The notes beneath the pieces were generated by a model. The model worked only from the letters and a program-made list of their open reading frames with translations, was not told the DNA's origin and searched no databases. DNA of 64,000 nt. Source: Arabidopsis thaliana (taxonomy: Eukaryota > Streptophyta > Magnoliopsida > Brassicales > Brassicaceae). Each line of letters starts with the position of its first letter. Position 1 is the stretch's first letter. The stretch spans positions 25,485,835-25,549,834 of the forward strand of contig NC_003076.8 in the NCBI RefSeq assembly GCF_000001735.4. Reading direction: 5' to 3'. Made by a program: the position numbers and the translations under genes. This document shows positions 20,515 through 33,458 of the stretch, one piece after another.

Positions 20515-22183
20515 ATGGAGCCCAATAACGTAGAGCGTAATCTTCAATCTCTGAGAAGATTATACAGTCTTCTCGTAGCAAATGCAAGGAACGAATATAT
20601 TCCTGAGGCATATAAGGTAAGTTTAATTTCTCTGTAATTTTCATCTTCAACCTCAGAATCATATTTCTATATCATCGAGTAATCTAACATTAGGAATCTT
20701 CTATTCGCAGTTGGACGACAACACTCAGTTTTTATTAAAGCGATTGCTCGATTTTGCTTCCCACGAACACTTTGTTACACAATCAAACGTAAGTAACCGT
20801 CAATATTCTATCGAGTAAATACTCTGTTTTCACATGTTTCATGTTTCTGAATTTTGGTTACTATAATTTTAAATTTTGTTACAGTTACTTGCAACACAAT
20901 TACGTGTGTTTCCTAAAACGGTTTTACACGGTGCAAAGCCGTCGAACGTGGCGGATTCTTCTGAGACGACGCCACCTGCAATGTTGTCTCAGATCAATGG
21001 TTCTCATATTACGCGAGTTAGTAAACCATTGGAGGCGAAAGGAACATTGCAGAGAGATCTGAGAGTTGATCAGATTCGGAGCAATCCTAGTAAGGATGTT
21101 TTGACAGAAGAAGTCGTTGATGCAATAGAGCAAATCGATACACAACTCTCCGCTTTAAGTTTCGTTTCTAGTCGTGTTGACTCTGATGAAAGAACAAGGT
21201 CTGTCAAGTCCTTTGTAACTCCTCCCACTGAAGAGTGTAGACAAAACAGTCAAGCTTCTATGCCTTGTTTAAGAAGCAATTACATGACGGTGAGTCAGAA
21301 AAGTGTGATTAGTGGTGCAGAAGTAACTTTCCCTTATAATGATCAGTTAGTTCGGGTTACGTCACCACCGCAGCCATTACCGCCTCGTGCTGTGAGTGGT
21401 TTCAAGAAGCCAAATCAAAGTAATAGAGCGTCACAAAAGATGCCGATTATGAAACCTACTTTGATGGATCAAGAAACCGAAACGTTTGATGATGATTCTT
21501 CTGAAACAGAAGCTGACCAAACACCGTCTGCGACAGGTTCTGAGTCGGAAGACGAAGAAGTTTCAACTAGTCAAGAATACTCTGGGGAAACAGGGTCAAG
21601 CTCTGGCTCGGAGTGGGAAACTCAAGCAGAGAATGACACCGAGTCTAAGTCAGAATCATCATATCCACCACAGAATGATGACTCTGTCTCTGAAGTCAGC
21701 ACTTCTCCTCCGCATACAGACAGGGACACATCAAGAGAACCTGGAAAACAGAGAAGAAATGTAATGGGGCGGTTTAAAAGGATAAAGAATAAGATAGGAC
21801 AAATATTTCACCATCATCACCACCACCACCACCATCATCATCACCACGACAAGGAAAAGCCATCAGCTTGGAATAAGTTGCAGAGTAAATTTCACCATAA
21901 GCACCAAGAGAAATCAAAAGAGAGGAAAAGACCGATGTCAGAATCCAAAGGTCTTACTACACATAAGCAGCAACATCAAGGTGGCCACTTTCATGCGCTA
22001 GTGGAAGGGTTGGTGAGACACAGAAAACACTCAAAAAAACAAAAGCATCAGCTGAAGAGTGATGCCAAGAAAACAGAGTGGTGGAAATTATTGAAGAAGC
22101 GTCAAGGTGGTGGCGTGAAGATTCCCAAAAGAGGACGTGTGAAGTTGGGAAAAAAAAAACATTATTTGTCCAAAAATGTTTAA
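20515..22183 (+). CDS. KPL: KOKOPELLI, sperm-expressed plant-specific protein
   Basis: Exons 20515-20616, 20711-20788 and 20885-22183 give 492 aa starting MEPNNVERNLQSLRRLYSLL. No catalytic domain is recognised. After a helical N terminus come a Pro-containing linker, a Ser/Glu/Asp-rich acidic stretch, a run of 13 His (codons at 21809-21847) and a very basic Lys/His-rich C terminus. Mutants of KPL (AT5G63720) are reported to disturb double fertilisation. The gene faces ARI14 tail to tail and the two transcripts make a sperm cis-nat-siRNA (established knowledge, Ron and colleagues). The molecular role of the protein is not evident from sequence. Confidence 0.88.
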
Positions 22184-22265
22184 GAAACAAGTCTCGATTA
22201 TTATATTGCAGAGCAAAACAATTGTAAAATATACAAGTTGAAAGTTTCATGCCTCCCTCGTGTTT
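22184..22265. other. KPL/ARI14 convergent 3' overlap zone
   Basis: Only 82 bp separate the KPL stop (22181-22183) from the ARI14 stop (22266-22268 on minus). Ordinary 3' UTR lengths force the two transcripts to overlap. This matches the published nat-siRNA pair. Confidence 0.8.
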
Positions 22266-23872
22266 TTAAGAAACTTTGTTAAGAAACAAATCACTTATCT
22301 CTCCCACAAGAGAGGCACTATCATCATAGCACATCTCACACTCATTATCCTCCCAAGTGTTTGCATACGTGCAGCGATCACAGTACCAGAAAGGACCAGT
22401 CCCGCCGTTGTATGACTTCACCTTTACATCGACCAAACCATCTTGTAAAGTTTTCATAAAATCATAAAAGTAGTTACCAATGTTGCTTGTCGCAGTAGGT
22501 ATCGTATGTCTGAAGAAAGTACACTCTTCATAAGTAGCTGCAGCGAGGACGATATCTTTTTGCTCTTGTAAAGTGTTTGAGTAACTCTGGAGCGTGGCGA
22601 TTGCATTTCCTTGGAGGTATCGTAGATACTCCTTCGAGTTCTCATACTCTGTGTGGAAATAGTCATACACACAACACCATTTAAGGACTCGTCTGCATTG
22701 AACAATCAACATCAACCCTTCTCTTATAATCATAATGTCTTGCTCCCTTAATAAGTCACTCGGTTTCTTGATGTTGGTTTCCTCGAAAGCTTCTAGATCG
22801 GATTTGGCTTGCTCCAGTAACTTCTGACACACGTTCCAGCGATCCTCACATAAAATCCCCACTTCTGTTTTAATACAGAATCCAGAGTCTACTGCTTCAA
22901 TTTTGTGGGCTTCCTCTGACCGCAAACACCTCGAACAGAAACGAAGCCTAAAGCAAGATAACACAAAAGAGTAAGGATCAAGACTTAAACAGAGAAATCC
23001 AATTCTATGTAATTGTCAAAATTAGGGTGAAACCTGCAGACACAAGTCAAGAACTGGGGCATTTTTGTATCAGACTCCAGAGAACAGAGGCAATGAGGGC
23101 AAGTCACTGTCTTGGTTTTGGTCGGATAAAGGCTAAATGATTCATCTGATATTTTCATTGTGGCACTACACAACCAATCAGAGGCCTTGTTACAACTCAC
23201 TGGTCTGTGTGACTCAAGTCTGCATCTCCAACAGAAGATATGACCACAGATACACACCACGTTTAAACTATACTCATCATCATCATCATTCTCTTGATGA
23301 AACTCAATAACATAATCGCAATTCCGTGCAGGACACTGTTTGATCATCAATACCTTGTTTCCTTCAATGTAAGATCTCCAAATGTACCTCTCGTACATCT
23401 CTTGATCACGTACTGTTAGTTTCTCAATCGTGTCTGGTCCAACCGCAGATCGACAATCTTGATCAGGACAAGAGATTGTGGTTTGGATTTTCTCCACATA
23501 GTAGAAATTCTTCTCAAGATACTCTCTCCAATATTTTGAGTCGAACTTGTGAGAACAAAAGGGCATGGAGATTAAATCATTATCACCATCAAACTCATAA
23601 ACATCAGTCTCCAAGCTAATCTCGCTAGATGAATCTGGACTGGGATCGATCATGACTGATTTCAAACCTGAATCCATCAATAATTTCTCCTTGTTTTCAC
23701 CTAAACGCTCTGAAACACGAAGCGAGTCCCATCGGAGATACATAAGAAGTACGGTCGCATCGGAGTTTGATATGAAGAAGATGTCAGAGATTTCATTGAT
23801 CTGTTTCTTCATCTTTACGGTAATTTCATTTCTCGTTAGAACAGAGTAGGGTCTCCGTCCATCGTACTCCAT
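22266..23872 (-). CDS. ARI14: ARIADNE14, RBR-type protein with degenerate RINGs
   Basis: Member of the ARIADNE RING-IBR-RING (RBR) ubiquitin-ligase family. Exons 23872-23034 and 22947-22266 give 506 aa. The N terminus has a UBA-like segment (DATVLLMYLRWDS). RING1 lacks its first Cys pair: where paralogues have CGIC, ARI14 has DVYEFDGD, and its CSHKFDSKYW has also lost a Cys. IBR is present (CPARNCDYVIEF ... CGHIFCWRC). RING2/Rcat reads TCPHC...QFLTCVC with no catalytic Cys. The C-terminal Ariadne helices end in a RanBP2-type zinc finger (WYCDRCTYANTWEDNECEMC). Ligase activity is doubtful. It is antisense to KPL at the 3' end. Matches AT5G63730. Confidence 0.92.
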
Positions 23873-24941: not shown

Positions 24942-25315
24942 CTAGTTGTCATCCGGTGCAGGGAGCTGTTTGCTCTCATTCTCAATGTAAACTCTCATAA
25001 CATAACTCAAGTACATGTCTTGATCATGTACTCCTAGTTTCTCAATCGTTTTTAGTCTAACCGAAGCTCCACAATCTTGATCAGGACATGAGATTACGGT
25101 TAAGTTTTCCTCCAGAGAGTAGAAATTTGTCTCTAGGTACTCCCTCCAACAAGTTTTGCAGAACTTGTGAGTACAATAGGGTGTGGAGATTAAACGATGA
25201 CTATCATATTCATCATCGCACTCTTCATCATTTTCATCATCATCATCATCATCATCATCCTCATCTTCATCGTCATCCTCGTCATCATCATCTTCATCAT
25301 CATCAGCATCATCAG

Positions 25316-25357
<42 letters not shown>

Positions 25358-25622
25358 CGTCCTCGTCCTCGTCCTCGTCCTCATCCGCATCCGCATCCTC
25401 ATCCTCATCCTCATCACCATCACCATCACCATCACCATCACCCTCACCATCATTGTTATGATCATCATAAACCTTAATATATTCATCTTCAGCCGTACGG
25501 CAAATACCACAAGTTGAATTAGATAAAACTAGATTCGAATCAATGACAACGGTTCTGATCCTTTTCTCCATCTCTTCCTTATCCTCATCTCTCAAGTACG
25601 ATCCTTGTTGATCGTTCTCCAT
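24942..25622 (-). CDS. Truncated ARIADNE-like protein, RING1 only, with acidic run
   Basis: A single-exon frame of 226 aa starting MENDQQGSYL (ATG at 25622). It keeps an intact RING1: CGIC, CTHKFCKTCWREYL, CPDQDC. It stops soon after IEKLGVHDQDMYLSYV, before the IBR domain. A D/E-rich block of roughly 80 residues sits between CGIC and the rest of RING1, encoded by the trinucleotide repeat at about 25225-25455. The N-terminal UBA-like part of the paralogues is shortened. Without IBR and Rcat it cannot act as a normal RBR ligase. It may be a RING-only protein or a gene on the way to loss. Matches AT5G63740. Confidence 0.8.
25225..25455 (+). repeat. Trinucleotide repeat (TCA/TCC/TCG) inside coding sequence
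   Basis: An imperfect (TCA)n tract with hexanucleotide TCATCC, TCCTCG and TCACCA variants. On the minus strand it encodes the Asp/Glu run. The other frames give meaningless poly-His, poly-Met or poly-Ile peptides. Confidence 0.9.
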
Positions 25623-27203
25623 TGTTTTCTTCAAATTAACAAAATATCAGATTGATTAATCGATAAACTACCAAAAGAGAGAAATATAAACTTGTAAAGA
25701 ATAGAGTTAAGGCTTTTACTAGTAGCTTACGCCTCAAACAACAAAATTGAGTCGAAGGTGAAGGGAGATTTTCCCTTCTCTATTGGGATATATCGAGATA
25801 CAAACTTGTTCTGTTTGTGCTATATTTATAGTTTGATAATCCAGTTTTCTAATTAATAAAATTGTCCCATTTGATCTTAATCTTGCTACAAAATGGTGAT
25901 TTGTATTAACTATACAATATCCAATCTAGGTTGATTTTTCTTTTCTTTTGGGGGACAACCTATATAGAAGTTTATTTAATTCACCATTATGTTTCCCAAC
26001 AGATGGCACAAATTAAGTTAGGTAAAAGACAATATTTGTCCAAAACAAATTCAAGAACATGAAGAAAACTAATCTTAAAAGAGTGTAAAGAAAATAAGAG
26101 GACAAAAGAATTGTAATCAAAGCCTAAAAGGCTAAAACCTTTAATGTTTCCTAAATCTTTTGTTTATCTTCAAGAAAACATAGAGGACATATTTCACTAA
26201 GATTTCAAAAAGAGTTTTTTTTTTTAATGTCAAATCCCTTATTATGGAACTTATGATTTAATAATCTTCTCAAATCTAGTCTTACTGAATTTTATACTAA
26301 AATCATTCAAAATATGATGGTATTGGATCAATAACTTATAAAAGTAATTAAATGATAACCCGAGATGTGTGCGCGCGAAATAGAGAGATTAGTAGATTAA
26401 TTCAAAATAGCATTAGTTAAAGAGTAGAATAATGTTTTTTAAAAACTTTCAATTTGATGTAAGGAGATTATATCAATATATATGTAACATTTACATGTAC
26501 TCCCTCTTCGAGATCTCATATAAAAATGTAACATTTACATGTAATGACTTTTTGTTGGTTTAACTTGAAATATGATCGTCTTTTGATTTCTTAAAGATAA
26601 ATTAGTTGATGTTCTGAGCTATGCACGGGAGAAACTAGTTCTTAAGATTTGTCTTTGCGAAACTAAAAGTGTATGTTAGTGTATGATAAAACAAAAATAT
26701 GAAAATTTAAAATACTCATTTTAGTGCTTTATAATTTTGCCAAGGTTCATCTAAATAACTAAATGTCGCTGAGTTAACTGAAATCATGCAACTAGCCAAA
26801 CATATTTAGTAAAATATTTTTTTTGTAATCTACGCTGGTTTTGACATATCTTACGTAGAAGCGAAATAAGAGAACTTGTTAACTCATCTTTTTCCATTTA
26901 GCCAATGTTAGAAAAAGAAATACAAAAAATATCCATTTATGTACATATATATATATATATAGGTGCTATGTCTCATCTCTTCATGATATATGATTTTCTA
27001 AGTGCAAAGATTGTCTATATTCTATGAGAAAGTTTCAACGAGTTATGTATGCAAGGGATAATGCCAAACTAGATGAAGTAAAAAAGATATTATTTGAGAC
27101 GAATTCCAAATCGCAGTACCTTTGAATTATTAGAATATCTCTGAATTTATTTAAAAACCCCACCAAAACAATTAAAATTCTTAATCCATTAGAGCTCCCT
27201 TAG
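25623..27203. other. Intergenic between truncated ARI copy and ARI13
   Basis: 25640-25770 is the leader (with probable intron) of the truncated ARI gene and resembles the ARI14 and ARI13 leaders. 25800-27200 is AT-rich with an (AT)n run near 26945-26961. No gene is supported. Confidence 0.5.
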
Positions 27204-30420: not shown

Positions 30421-31884
30421 TCAATCACTTAGCTCGTCCATCTTAGACGCAGTAGGATCACAGCACATCTTACAGGCCCTCTGGAACCAAGAGTTTCCAT
30501 ATGTGCAGCGATCGCACAACCAGTAAGGACCACCATAGTTGTCGTACGACTCCGCCTGTACCTCGGGCAAACCTTCTCGTAAAGTCTTGATGAAATGATA
30601 AAAGAAGTTCCCAATGTTGGTTGTCTCGCTCAATAGCTTACCGCAAGTAAGCTCTTTGGCTTCTGTTTCCTCCTTTATACTCTGTGAGAAACTATGGACA
30701 ATGCCAGACGCGTTTTGTTGGAGGAATCGCAGGTACTCTCTCTTCGCCATATCATACTCTGTGTGGATATAGTCGTACGCACAGCTCCATTTGAGGAACT
30801 GTCTGCACTGAACAATGAGCATCAGTCCTTCCCTTAGTACCTTAACGTCTTGCTCCTTCAAGTCACTAGGTTTCTTGATTATGGATTCCTCGAAAGCTTC
30901 TAGCTCGTATTTAGCGTTCACCAGATTCACTTGACTCGCATTCCAGAGATCCAAACACGAAATCCCCGGTTTTGCTCTGTTCCAATGATTGAAACCAACA
31001 TTGCTCGAACGCGCCGGTGCCAAACAGGATCCTGAGGTTCCGTGAGTTTCCGGTGACCGAAAACACTTCCAACAGAAACGACCGCTGAATCAAGAAAACA
31101 CACAAATTAGTATGATCAAATAATTAAGATAGAGAAATCTAATAATCTGCGAATAGCAAAAAACAGTGTTATTTTCATAAGAGTGAAACCTGCAGACACA
31201 AGTCAAGAACTGGGCCCATGGTCGTTCACCATCAATCTCCACAGGAATAAAGCAATGAGGGCAAGGCTTGGTATTGGCATCAATCCAGGAGACGGTCGAT
31301 GGCTTGTCTACTTCTTCTATCAATTTCTCCAAGTCTCTAGACAACCAATCAGAAGCGTTGTTGCAGGTCACTGGTCTGTGTGACTCAAGCATGCATCTCC
31401 AACAGAAGATATGACCACAGAGACACACAATGTTTAAGCTATGCTCTTCATCTTCACTTGCCAGATGAAACTCAATCACGTAATTGCAACCCCGTGCAGG
31501 ACACAGTTTGAGCTTCCATCCCAGGTATTTCTCACGGTAAGATTTCAGAATATACAACTCGTACATCGCTTGATCACGTACGGTTAGCTTCTCAACCGTC
31601 TCCGGTCCAACAGCAGCTCGACAATCTCGATCAGGACAAGAGATTGCAGTGTGGTTTTTCTCCACAGAGAAGAAATTTTTCTTAAGATACTTGCTCCAAC
31701 AAGCTTTGCAGAACTTGTGAGAACAAAAAGGCGTGGAGATCAAATCACCATCAACAACAACAGCATCACCATCATAATCGTCATCACCAATATTAGAGCA
31801 GATCCCACAATATACACGAGATAAATCTTGATTCGAATCAATAACAACTGGTTTCAAACCTGATTCAGTCATTAGTTTCTCCAT
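30421..31884 (-). CDS. ARI15: ARIADNE15, RBR-type protein with lost N terminus
   Basis: Exons 31884-31190 and 31084-30421 give 452 aa, about 80 aa shorter than ARI13. RING1 is intact (CGIC, CSHKFCKACW, CPDRDC), as are IBR (CPARGCNYVIEF, CLCGHIFCWRC) and the RanBP2-type finger (WLCDRCTYGNSWFQRACKMC). RING2/Rcat reads CPHC...WAQFLTCVC, without the catalytic Cys. The start is the first in-frame ATG left: homology to ARI13/14 continues upstream through RWDSNRVLERLGED to about 31923 and then breaks off at a TGA. So the true ancestral start has been deleted. Matches AT5G63760. Confidence 0.9.
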
Positions 31885-33458
31885 GTCTTCACCCAAACGC
31901 TCCAAAACCCGATTCGAGTCCCATCGGAATCAAGATTGACTCCGAAGGTAAACAGAGGAAAGCTTTAACAGACGAGAGTTTTCTTGTATCTACTGTTCTA
32001 GGGTTTTCCTTTTTTTTTTGCTTTGGAGATATCGATTGCTTCTCTACAAATTGTTTTTTTAATCATTATTAATTGGACCCTAATCATTCTAAATATTTGT
32101 GATTTATATAAGATTACAACAGCCAATTATGGTTTACATTGATTTTTTTTTTAAAAAGCCTATAAATAGTTTTTTTTTATTAACTCAACATTATGATTCT
32201 TTATTATTTATCAATTTAATAACAAAAGTTGACAAACAAAAATAAATCTAAAAAAAAAGATCTGTACTAAATGTGATTAAACTTGTTAAGAAATGTTACT
32301 GAAAGCAAAAGGCAAACCAAATCTAAAGTCAATAAAGAAAATATCCACCTCCATGATTCAATAAGCCCCCTAAATGGCTAAATCAATCAAAAATAGGAAA
32401 CAAACATAGACCCAAAAGTATATTTAAGTAATATATTTGACTTTCAGCTAATTTTATTATCTTTGGTCAAAAAAAAATAAAAAAAAATTTTGTTTATGTT
32501 TTGACTTGGTGAACACTAAATCTAGTGCATGTGGTTACCAACTCACAAACTAATAAGCAATGCGATTGGTTCTTTATCATGCAAGTGACGTCACAAGAGT
32601 TGAGTGAAGGGTATAATAGTAAAATCAGTAAGAAGAGGCAACGCCGACGAACCCGTGGCCCGCACGTCGTGAGAAGAGAAGAGAGTCTGTGTGAGCAGAA
32701 CAGAGCGAGGAAAGGCGCGTTTGTTGCGTTTTGGCCCCAAAGGCCAAAGCCCGCCTTTTGCTTTTCACCTTTCGTTATAAAAAGCGTTTCCTCTCCTTCT
32801 CTTTCCATTTCTCTCTCTCTCCTCTCTCGCTCGCTGGCTTCGAGGAGAAAAAAGAAAAATTGGAGAAATAATTTAACTGGTTCTCGGAGAATCTAGGGTT
32901 CTTTTTAGCCACGCCTTGCTGATCTCCTTCGTGAATTCGATTCCGATTCTCACCTGGTACGGTTTTTTATATTTACTCTTGGTTAGAATTCGCGTCAGAT
33001 CTGGAATTTTTGTCATACTTTTTTTTTCTTTCGATATCGATTCCTATGATGACCTCTTCTGTGTCATATTTTTGTGCATTAGGCTTGATTTGTGTGTTGT
33101 TGTTTCGCCGAATTGCTTGATCTCGTTTAGTTTTGGTGGTCTTAGACGATTTGTGGCTTAGACTGTCCAATGTGGAATTGAACAGAGTTTGATGTCTAGC
33201 TTTAGAAATACAGTAATCTCCTAATTGTTCAGGATTTGGTTTAGGAATTATGAGATTGTGCTATCTCTGGCACGATAGAAAGGGAAAAAACTAGGTCACT
33301 AGCTTTGTTGAAGCGGAATTGTTGAGCCATTATTGAATCTGTGATTATTGAGGTTATCTCTTCTTACGGAGACTTATCTGGCAGGTCTTTTGTGGCCTAA
33401 AGCTCATAAGTTTATGCTAGTGCAAGAAGTTATATAGGAATGACATATTAGATTTACA
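31885..33458. other. ARI15 upstream remnant and DGK2 promoter and leader
   Basis: 31885-31960 holds the decayed ARI15 5' end. 31990-32500 is AT-rich with nothing seen. A TATA-like TATAAAA (about 32777) precedes a CT-rich leader. A probable leader intron runs from 32957 (GTACGG) to 33384 ('tctggcag'), with leader exon 2 from 33385 to 33458. Confidence 0.55.

Follow-up and report, generated by a model that had tools for sequence, protein, structure and literature searches.

How does KPL act on its convergent neighbour ARI14 in sperm of Arabidopsis thaliana, and what kind of protein is the ARI14 that it is said to hold down? The pair is already known and published: citing papers credit Ron et al. 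2010 (Genes Dev 24:1010) with describing KPL and ARI14, their sperm nat-siRNA and the associated single-fertilisation phenotype. The genes, their order and their strands in our data are those of the published cis-nat-siRNA pair, as the original prediction held, and from the sequence alone we found no difference from the locus as citing papers describe it. Our analysis covered a window of 64,000 nucleotides (C5:25485835-25549834) within a searched genome of 119,662,809 bases. The names of neighbouring genes follow PMC7154859, which gives ARI13 as At5g63750, ARI14 as At5g63730, ARI15 as At5g63760 and ARI16 as At5g08730, and were assigned here from gene order and domain content.

With open frames and GT/AG splice sites as guides, KPL resolves into three exons encoding 492 aa and ARI14 into two exons encoding 506 aa, the latter separated by an intron of 86 bp (coordinates in the table below). 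The two genes are adjacent, on opposite strands and tail to tail, which is the arrangement of a 3'-end cis-NAT pair, and exactly 82 bases lie strictly between their stop codons, the distance originally predicted. No AACCGY motif, a DUO1-like site, occurs in the 1 kb upstream of either gene, compared with 34 across the two strands of the whole window. Within KPL, a CAC/CAT run at 21809-21847 (plus strand), read by eye, encodes a tract of 13 His and is a possible length-variable site.

Features of the KPL/ARI14 locus, in window coordinates
Feature	Position	Strand	Remarks
KPL exon 1	20515..20616	+	GT/AG splicing, open frame; starts at ATG 20515
KPL exon 2	20711..20788	+	GT/AG splicing, open frame
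KPL exon 3 including stop codon	20885..22183	+	aa 251-360 acidic, aa 361-492 basic and His-rich; stop codon ends at 22183
Stop-to-stop gap, 82 bp	22184..22265	.	No second genomic match among the best candidates scored
ARI14 exon 2 including stop codon	22947-22266	-	End of Rcat, Ariadne-like region, NZF-type finger; stop codon 22268-22266
ARI14 exon 1	23872-23034	-	UBA-like, RING1, IBR, start of Rcat; starts at ATG 23872
ARI14 RING1 region, aa 85-143	23444..23620	-	From alignment; no Pfam RING match
ARI14 IBR domain	23192..23401	-	Pfam PF01485, 51.4 bits; 8/8 ligands
ARI14 Rcat, exon 1 part	23034..23101	-	First ligands retained; no cysteine at the catalytic position (alignment)
ARI14 Rcat, exon 2 part	22875..22947	-	Remaining ligands
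ARI14 C-terminal RanBP2/NZF-type finger, aa 467-486	22329..22388	-	Matches to Nup153, NPL4 and TAB3

A 3'-end cis-NAT pair requires mature transcripts that overlap by more than 21 nt, and from usual UTR lengths the 3' ends of KPL and ARI14 are likely to overlap. The original prediction had stated that they must, which is too strong, because a 2018 study describes the TAIR10 models of the two genes as non-overlapping (PMC5946162); that study also reports pollen RNA-seq in which the pair was not detected and ARI14 was low in the wild type. Hexamers within one mismatch of AATAAA are present on both strands around the stop codons. On the minus strand five lie within 22051-22300 (22280, 22207, 22202, 22166 and 22092), some of which would place the end of ARI14 close to the KPL stop codon or past it, and on the plus strand ten start within 22150-22449 (22150-22154 in an A run, then 22182, 22228, 22268, 22281 and 22285), some of which would let KPL extend into the end of ARI14, such hexamers being common and weak as signals. 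When 22100-22500 was compared with the genome, the best candidates scored included a single second match, to ARI13 (79% over 22279-22494), and none to the 82-bp gap.

None of the 62 21-mers in the gap matches ARI13, ARI15 or the AT5G63740-like gene at up to three mismatches (the best have 6-7), and siRNAs from the gap should thus spare all three. Silencing of paralogues in trans by overlap siRNAs was considered and set aside on this ground, and wider siRNAs might reach the paralogues: at the same tolerance, the final 185 bases of ARI14's coding sequence yield 28 of 165 21-mers that match ARI13, 11 of 165 that match ARI15 and 0 of 165 that match the AT5G63740-like gene, counts that have no shuffled control. 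ARI14 and ARI15 also share exact stretches of 32 nt at 23027-23058, crossing the exon 1 donor, and of 30 nt at 23221-23250, lengths that would suffice for cross-silencing should siRNAs spread as far as exon 1. The AT5G63740-like gene is an ARIADNE-like frame at 24942-25646 (minus strand) with a very long Asp/Glu tract inside RING1 and a stop before any IBR; its RING-type Pfam matches fall below their cut-offs, and it is probably AT5G63740 itself, a name taken from gene order. ARI15, as read here (30421-31929, minus strand), has no UBA-like N-terminus, its frame starting at the match to ARI14 residue 46.

The explanation that we prefer, and to which as a whole we would give an even chance, is an siRNA brake on a catalytically dead decoy. 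In sperm, KPL transcription would lower ARI14, most likely via small RNAs from the overlapping 3' ends; ARI14, with no acceptor cysteine in its Rcat, would not be an active RBR ligase; and an excess of it would serve as a decoy, tying up ubiquitin, cullin complexes or ligase partners. The siRNAs, the rise of ARI14 in kpl and the effect of its overexpression are taken from the literature. Both transcripts are reported to be present in the same cell, with siRNAs arising from the overlap, and papers citing Ron et al. 2010 describe nat-siRNAs, raised ARI14 in kpl, raised ARI14 RNA in dcl1, hen1, hyl1, rdr2, sgs3 and sde4, and lowered seed set on ARI14 overexpression (PMC10582762).

The claim that the nat-siRNA lowers ARI14 therefore has reports behind it, but a 2012 review (PMC4030863) holds that ARI14 cleavage has not been convincingly shown and suggests translational inhibition instead. 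According to the same review, null dcl1 passes normally through the male, that is, through pollen, the weak dcl1-9 has more ARI14 transcript, no other mutant of the nat-siRNA pathway phenocopies kpl, and the antisense pair occurs only in Brassicaceae. The doubt over cleavage, the normal transmission of null dcl1 and the missing phenocopy together leave the siRNA step unsettled.

Because evidence both for and against the siRNA step stands, we consider it possible, at a lower probability than the siRNA brake, that KPL is a protein-coding fertilisation gene, that loss of its protein leads to single fertilisation, and that its antisense arrangement with ARI14 is a minor by-product of recent origin. 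KPL has an open frame of 492 codons and no second copy in its own genome at E up to 0.01. Its orthologues are reported from monocots and dicots and are described as straightforward to identify (PMC10469538), and a kokopelli orthologue is reported to lie within a maize haploid-induction QTL (PMC10582762). This breadth of KPL, set beside a pair reported only from Brassicaceae and a phenotype that no nat-siRNA mutant is said to reproduce, makes a function of the KPL protein a serious rival. The kpl phenotype thus has a competing explanation in a conserved KPL protein, which the original prediction did not take into account. On the other hand, KPL matches no Pfam family at E up to 1, and a model based on the protein does not readily accommodate the finding that overexpression of ARI14 alone lowers seed set, or the increase of ARI14 RNA in siRNA-pathway mutants.

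Citing papers disagree on the number of sperm in kpl, which matters for any mechanism. One describes the delivery of two apparently normal sperm, with about 40% of fertilised ovules singly fertilised (PMC10582762), and another describes some single-sperm pollen, with double fertilisation in 80.8% of 631 seeds (PMC8279741). Jacquier et al. 2023 obtained haploids from both kpl alleles (4/1179 and 1/1389 plants), with significance reported for kpl-1 (PMC10469538). This low-rate maternal haploid induction is of interest to breeders, and if KPL acts as a protein, haploid induction by kpl could be feasible in crops with KPL but without the antisense pair.

A less probable, and in our view unlikely, alternative is that convergent polymerases interfere with each other, in which case KPL transcription would lower ARI14 and the small RNAs would be by-products. 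The stop codons converge at a distance of 82 bp, evidence for ARI14 cleavage is lacking in the account of the 2012 review (PMC4030863), and convergent Arabidopsis pairs with shared polyadenylation regions are known (PMC3032780); nevertheless, the rise of ARI14 RNA in several siRNA-biogenesis mutants does not fit small RNAs that are by-products.

The second half of the preferred explanation, the catalytically dead decoy, can be examined in the ARI14 protein itself. Zinc ligands were aligned among ARI14, ARI13, ARI15, ARI16 and six further ARIADNE loci. These outgroups enter the alignment as exon pieces, two of which (L005 and L006) lack RING1, so RING1 was compared with four outgroup rows and Rcat with six. 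In RING1 of ARI14, C1, C2, C5 and C6 are absent and C3, H4, C7 and C8 are present (4/8). The four absent residues are those that form zinc site 1 of a cross-brace RING, which is accordingly at 0/4 in a protein where the other RBR ligands stand at 20/20, including 8/8 in the IBR and 8/8 in Rcat. Were four losses distributed at random over 24 ligands, they would strike one site in 6 of 10626 ways, a figure calculated post hoc and without regard to shared history. No RING was matched in ARI14 by Pfam at E up to 1, where only IBR and UBA_ARI1 were found, unlike ARI13, in which the Pfam RING also scores above its cut-off. The degenerate RING1 of the original prediction is thus borne out, and a RING1 without a whole zinc site is not expected to allow normal E2 docking.

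The UBA-like domain of ARI14 (PF21235) scores 27.7 bits against a cut-off of 26.9. The C-terminal Ariadne domain has no Pfam match, and the corresponding region shows only a short, non-significant match to ARIH1 and aligns with ARI13, ARI15 and ARI16. ARI14 presents an intact IBR, but neither the complete RING1 nor the catalytic Rcat cysteine expected of an RBR E3. In ARI16 (L004, C5:2.85 Mb) RING1 is also broken and the catalytic place of Rcat has no cysteine. A structure prediction for ARI14 exon 1, with the exons of ARI13 and ARI15 in a three-row alignment, returned a mean pLDDT of 33 and was useless.

The degeneracy predicted for Rcat takes the form of a missing cysteine at the catalytic position, and ARI14 shares it with its relatives: the catalytic cysteine is present in 0/4 of ARI13-16 versus 10/10 of the other ARIADNE loci examined, all ten of which have Gly-Cys at this position, in the segment that separates Rcat ligands 2 and 3. 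Six of these loci were assessed by alignment (L001, L002, L003, L005, L006 and L007) and four by pattern (L008, L011, L012 and L017), a set that excludes ARI5, ARI12 and other RBR families (there are 51 IBR matches genome-wide, several per gene). The stretch between ligands 2 and 3 is 1-3 residues longer in ARI13-16, and in ARI14 the catalytic column is a gap, the one other Rcat cysteine lying two residues after ligand 2 and not at the catalytic place. At the Rc-8 column ARI15 and ARI16 have Ser, with Cys close by, probably through local misalignment. That ARI14 retains E3 ligase activity and, in excess, degrades a fertilisation factor is very improbable given the gap in its catalytic column and the absence of RING1 zinc site 1, even though the literature names it a putative ligase and ARI12, the only subfamily A/B member with Ser at the catalytic Cys, is active in vitro (PMC4503874).

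ARI13 and ARI14 are absent from the text of PMC4503874, whose relevant passages are silent on subfamily C. Among the literature surveyed, which did not extend to Ron et al. 2010 and Mladek 2003 themselves, we found no evident statement of the cysteine loss in ARI13-16, and one may be in print. This loss, together with the exact anatomy of ARI14 inactivation, is what the present analysis adds. PMC7154859 traces to Ron et al. 2010 the view that ARI14 lacks activity and works through binding, and also relates a proposal that ARI14 counteracts ARI13. Because ARI13 too has no acceptor cysteine, antagonism of a live ARI13 by ARI14 is weakened as an idea, and if all of ARI13-16 lack this residue, the proposal needs rethinking.

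What ARI14 keeps is consistent with binding. A C-terminal RanBP2/NZF-type finger is common to ARI13, ARI14, ARI15 and ARI16, and that of ARI14 matches Nup153 best (E 3.7e-5), followed by NPL4 (E 0.002) and TAB3 (E 0.0029). NZF fingers have the spacing WxCx2Cx3Nx6Cx2C, and a Thr-Phe/Tyr pair and a Met are their ubiquitin contact residues. The ARI14 finger, aligned with NPL4, has this spacing, a Thr-aromatic pair and the Met, and its best match remains Nup153, whose finger binds Ran and is not known as a ubiquitin binder. A role for ARI14 as a ubiquitin-binding decoy via this finger is therefore plausible at most from its residues, and since ARI14 retains the UBA-like region, the IBR and the finger, an excess of it would be a binding decoy.

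Evolutionary rates are less accommodating to a strong claim about the protein. Over the 437 codons for which ARI13, ARI14 and ARI15 could all be aligned (ARI16 was excluded), branch omega is 0.79 for ARI14 (bootstrap interval 0.53-1.28; at least 1 in 12.4% of 1000 replicates), 0.53 for ARI13 (0.36-0.83; at least 1 in 0.3% of 1000) and 0.83 for ARI15 (0.56-1.31; at least 1 in 21.4% of 1000), and the rate of ARI14 does not clearly exceed that of ARI15. Pairwise values are 0.62 (NG86) and 0.65 (YN00) for ARI13-ARI14 and 0.72 and 0.91, respectively, for ARI14-ARI15; ARI14-ARI16 gives 0.34 (NG86) at a dS of 1.46, near saturation. Because its interval reaches 1, constraint on the ARI14 protein is unproven and the gene is indistinguishable from one that is drifting, a result that speaks against strong claims at the protein level. 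Changes found only in ARI14 are more frequent in RING1 (11 changed, 26 unchanged) than in the linker plus IBR (6 changed, 49 unchanged; Fisher p 0.03, uncorrected). The comparison of RING1 with the rest of the protein is not significant (p 0.15), that of the IBR with the rest gives p 0.036, and regional omegas, on 28-160 codons each, are noisy. The same doubt about constraint is voiced for tandem RBR duplicates generally, with the remark that expression of the low-expressed genes is raised in pollen, and most of the duplicates are reported to be missing from Brassica (PMC2904391). A B. napus gene named as the ARI14 orthologue is reported to be expressed most highly in root (PMC9181464), and so gives no support for a conserved sperm role.

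Taken jointly, these observations allow a broader scenario that we put forward only tentatively. ARI13-16 would be a pseudo-RBR clade that lost ubiquitin transfer and kept modules for binding ubiquitin, cullins or partners, and ARI14 would be a pure decoy that has also discarded the E2-docking zinc site. The main cause of the kpl fertilisation defect might be the absence of the conserved KPL protein, and the antisense brake on the decoy, confined to Brassicaceae, would have come later.

KPL/ARI14 is a much-cited developmental case of a plant nat-siRNA. The P5CDH gene is paired with SRO5. Like KPL/ARI14, the P5CDH pair is antisense and its siRNAs are said to lower one partner (Borsani 2005), but it is described as induced by salt or stress and not as sperm-specific. 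With the ARIADNE RBR ligases, such as human ARIH1 and Arabidopsis ARI8, ARI14 shares the UBA-like region and the zinc ligands of IBR and Rcat (phmmer match to ARIH1 5udh, E 5.7e-20), but unlike them it has neither RING1 zinc site 1 nor the catalytic cysteine. It also resembles the other members of subfamily C, ARI13, ARI15 and ARI16, which likewise have no Rcat cysteine at the catalytic place and end in the same type of finger; ARI13 and ARI15 differ from ARI14 in retaining all eight RING1 ligands, whereas ARI16 has lost three (C1, C2 and C5) to the four of ARI14.
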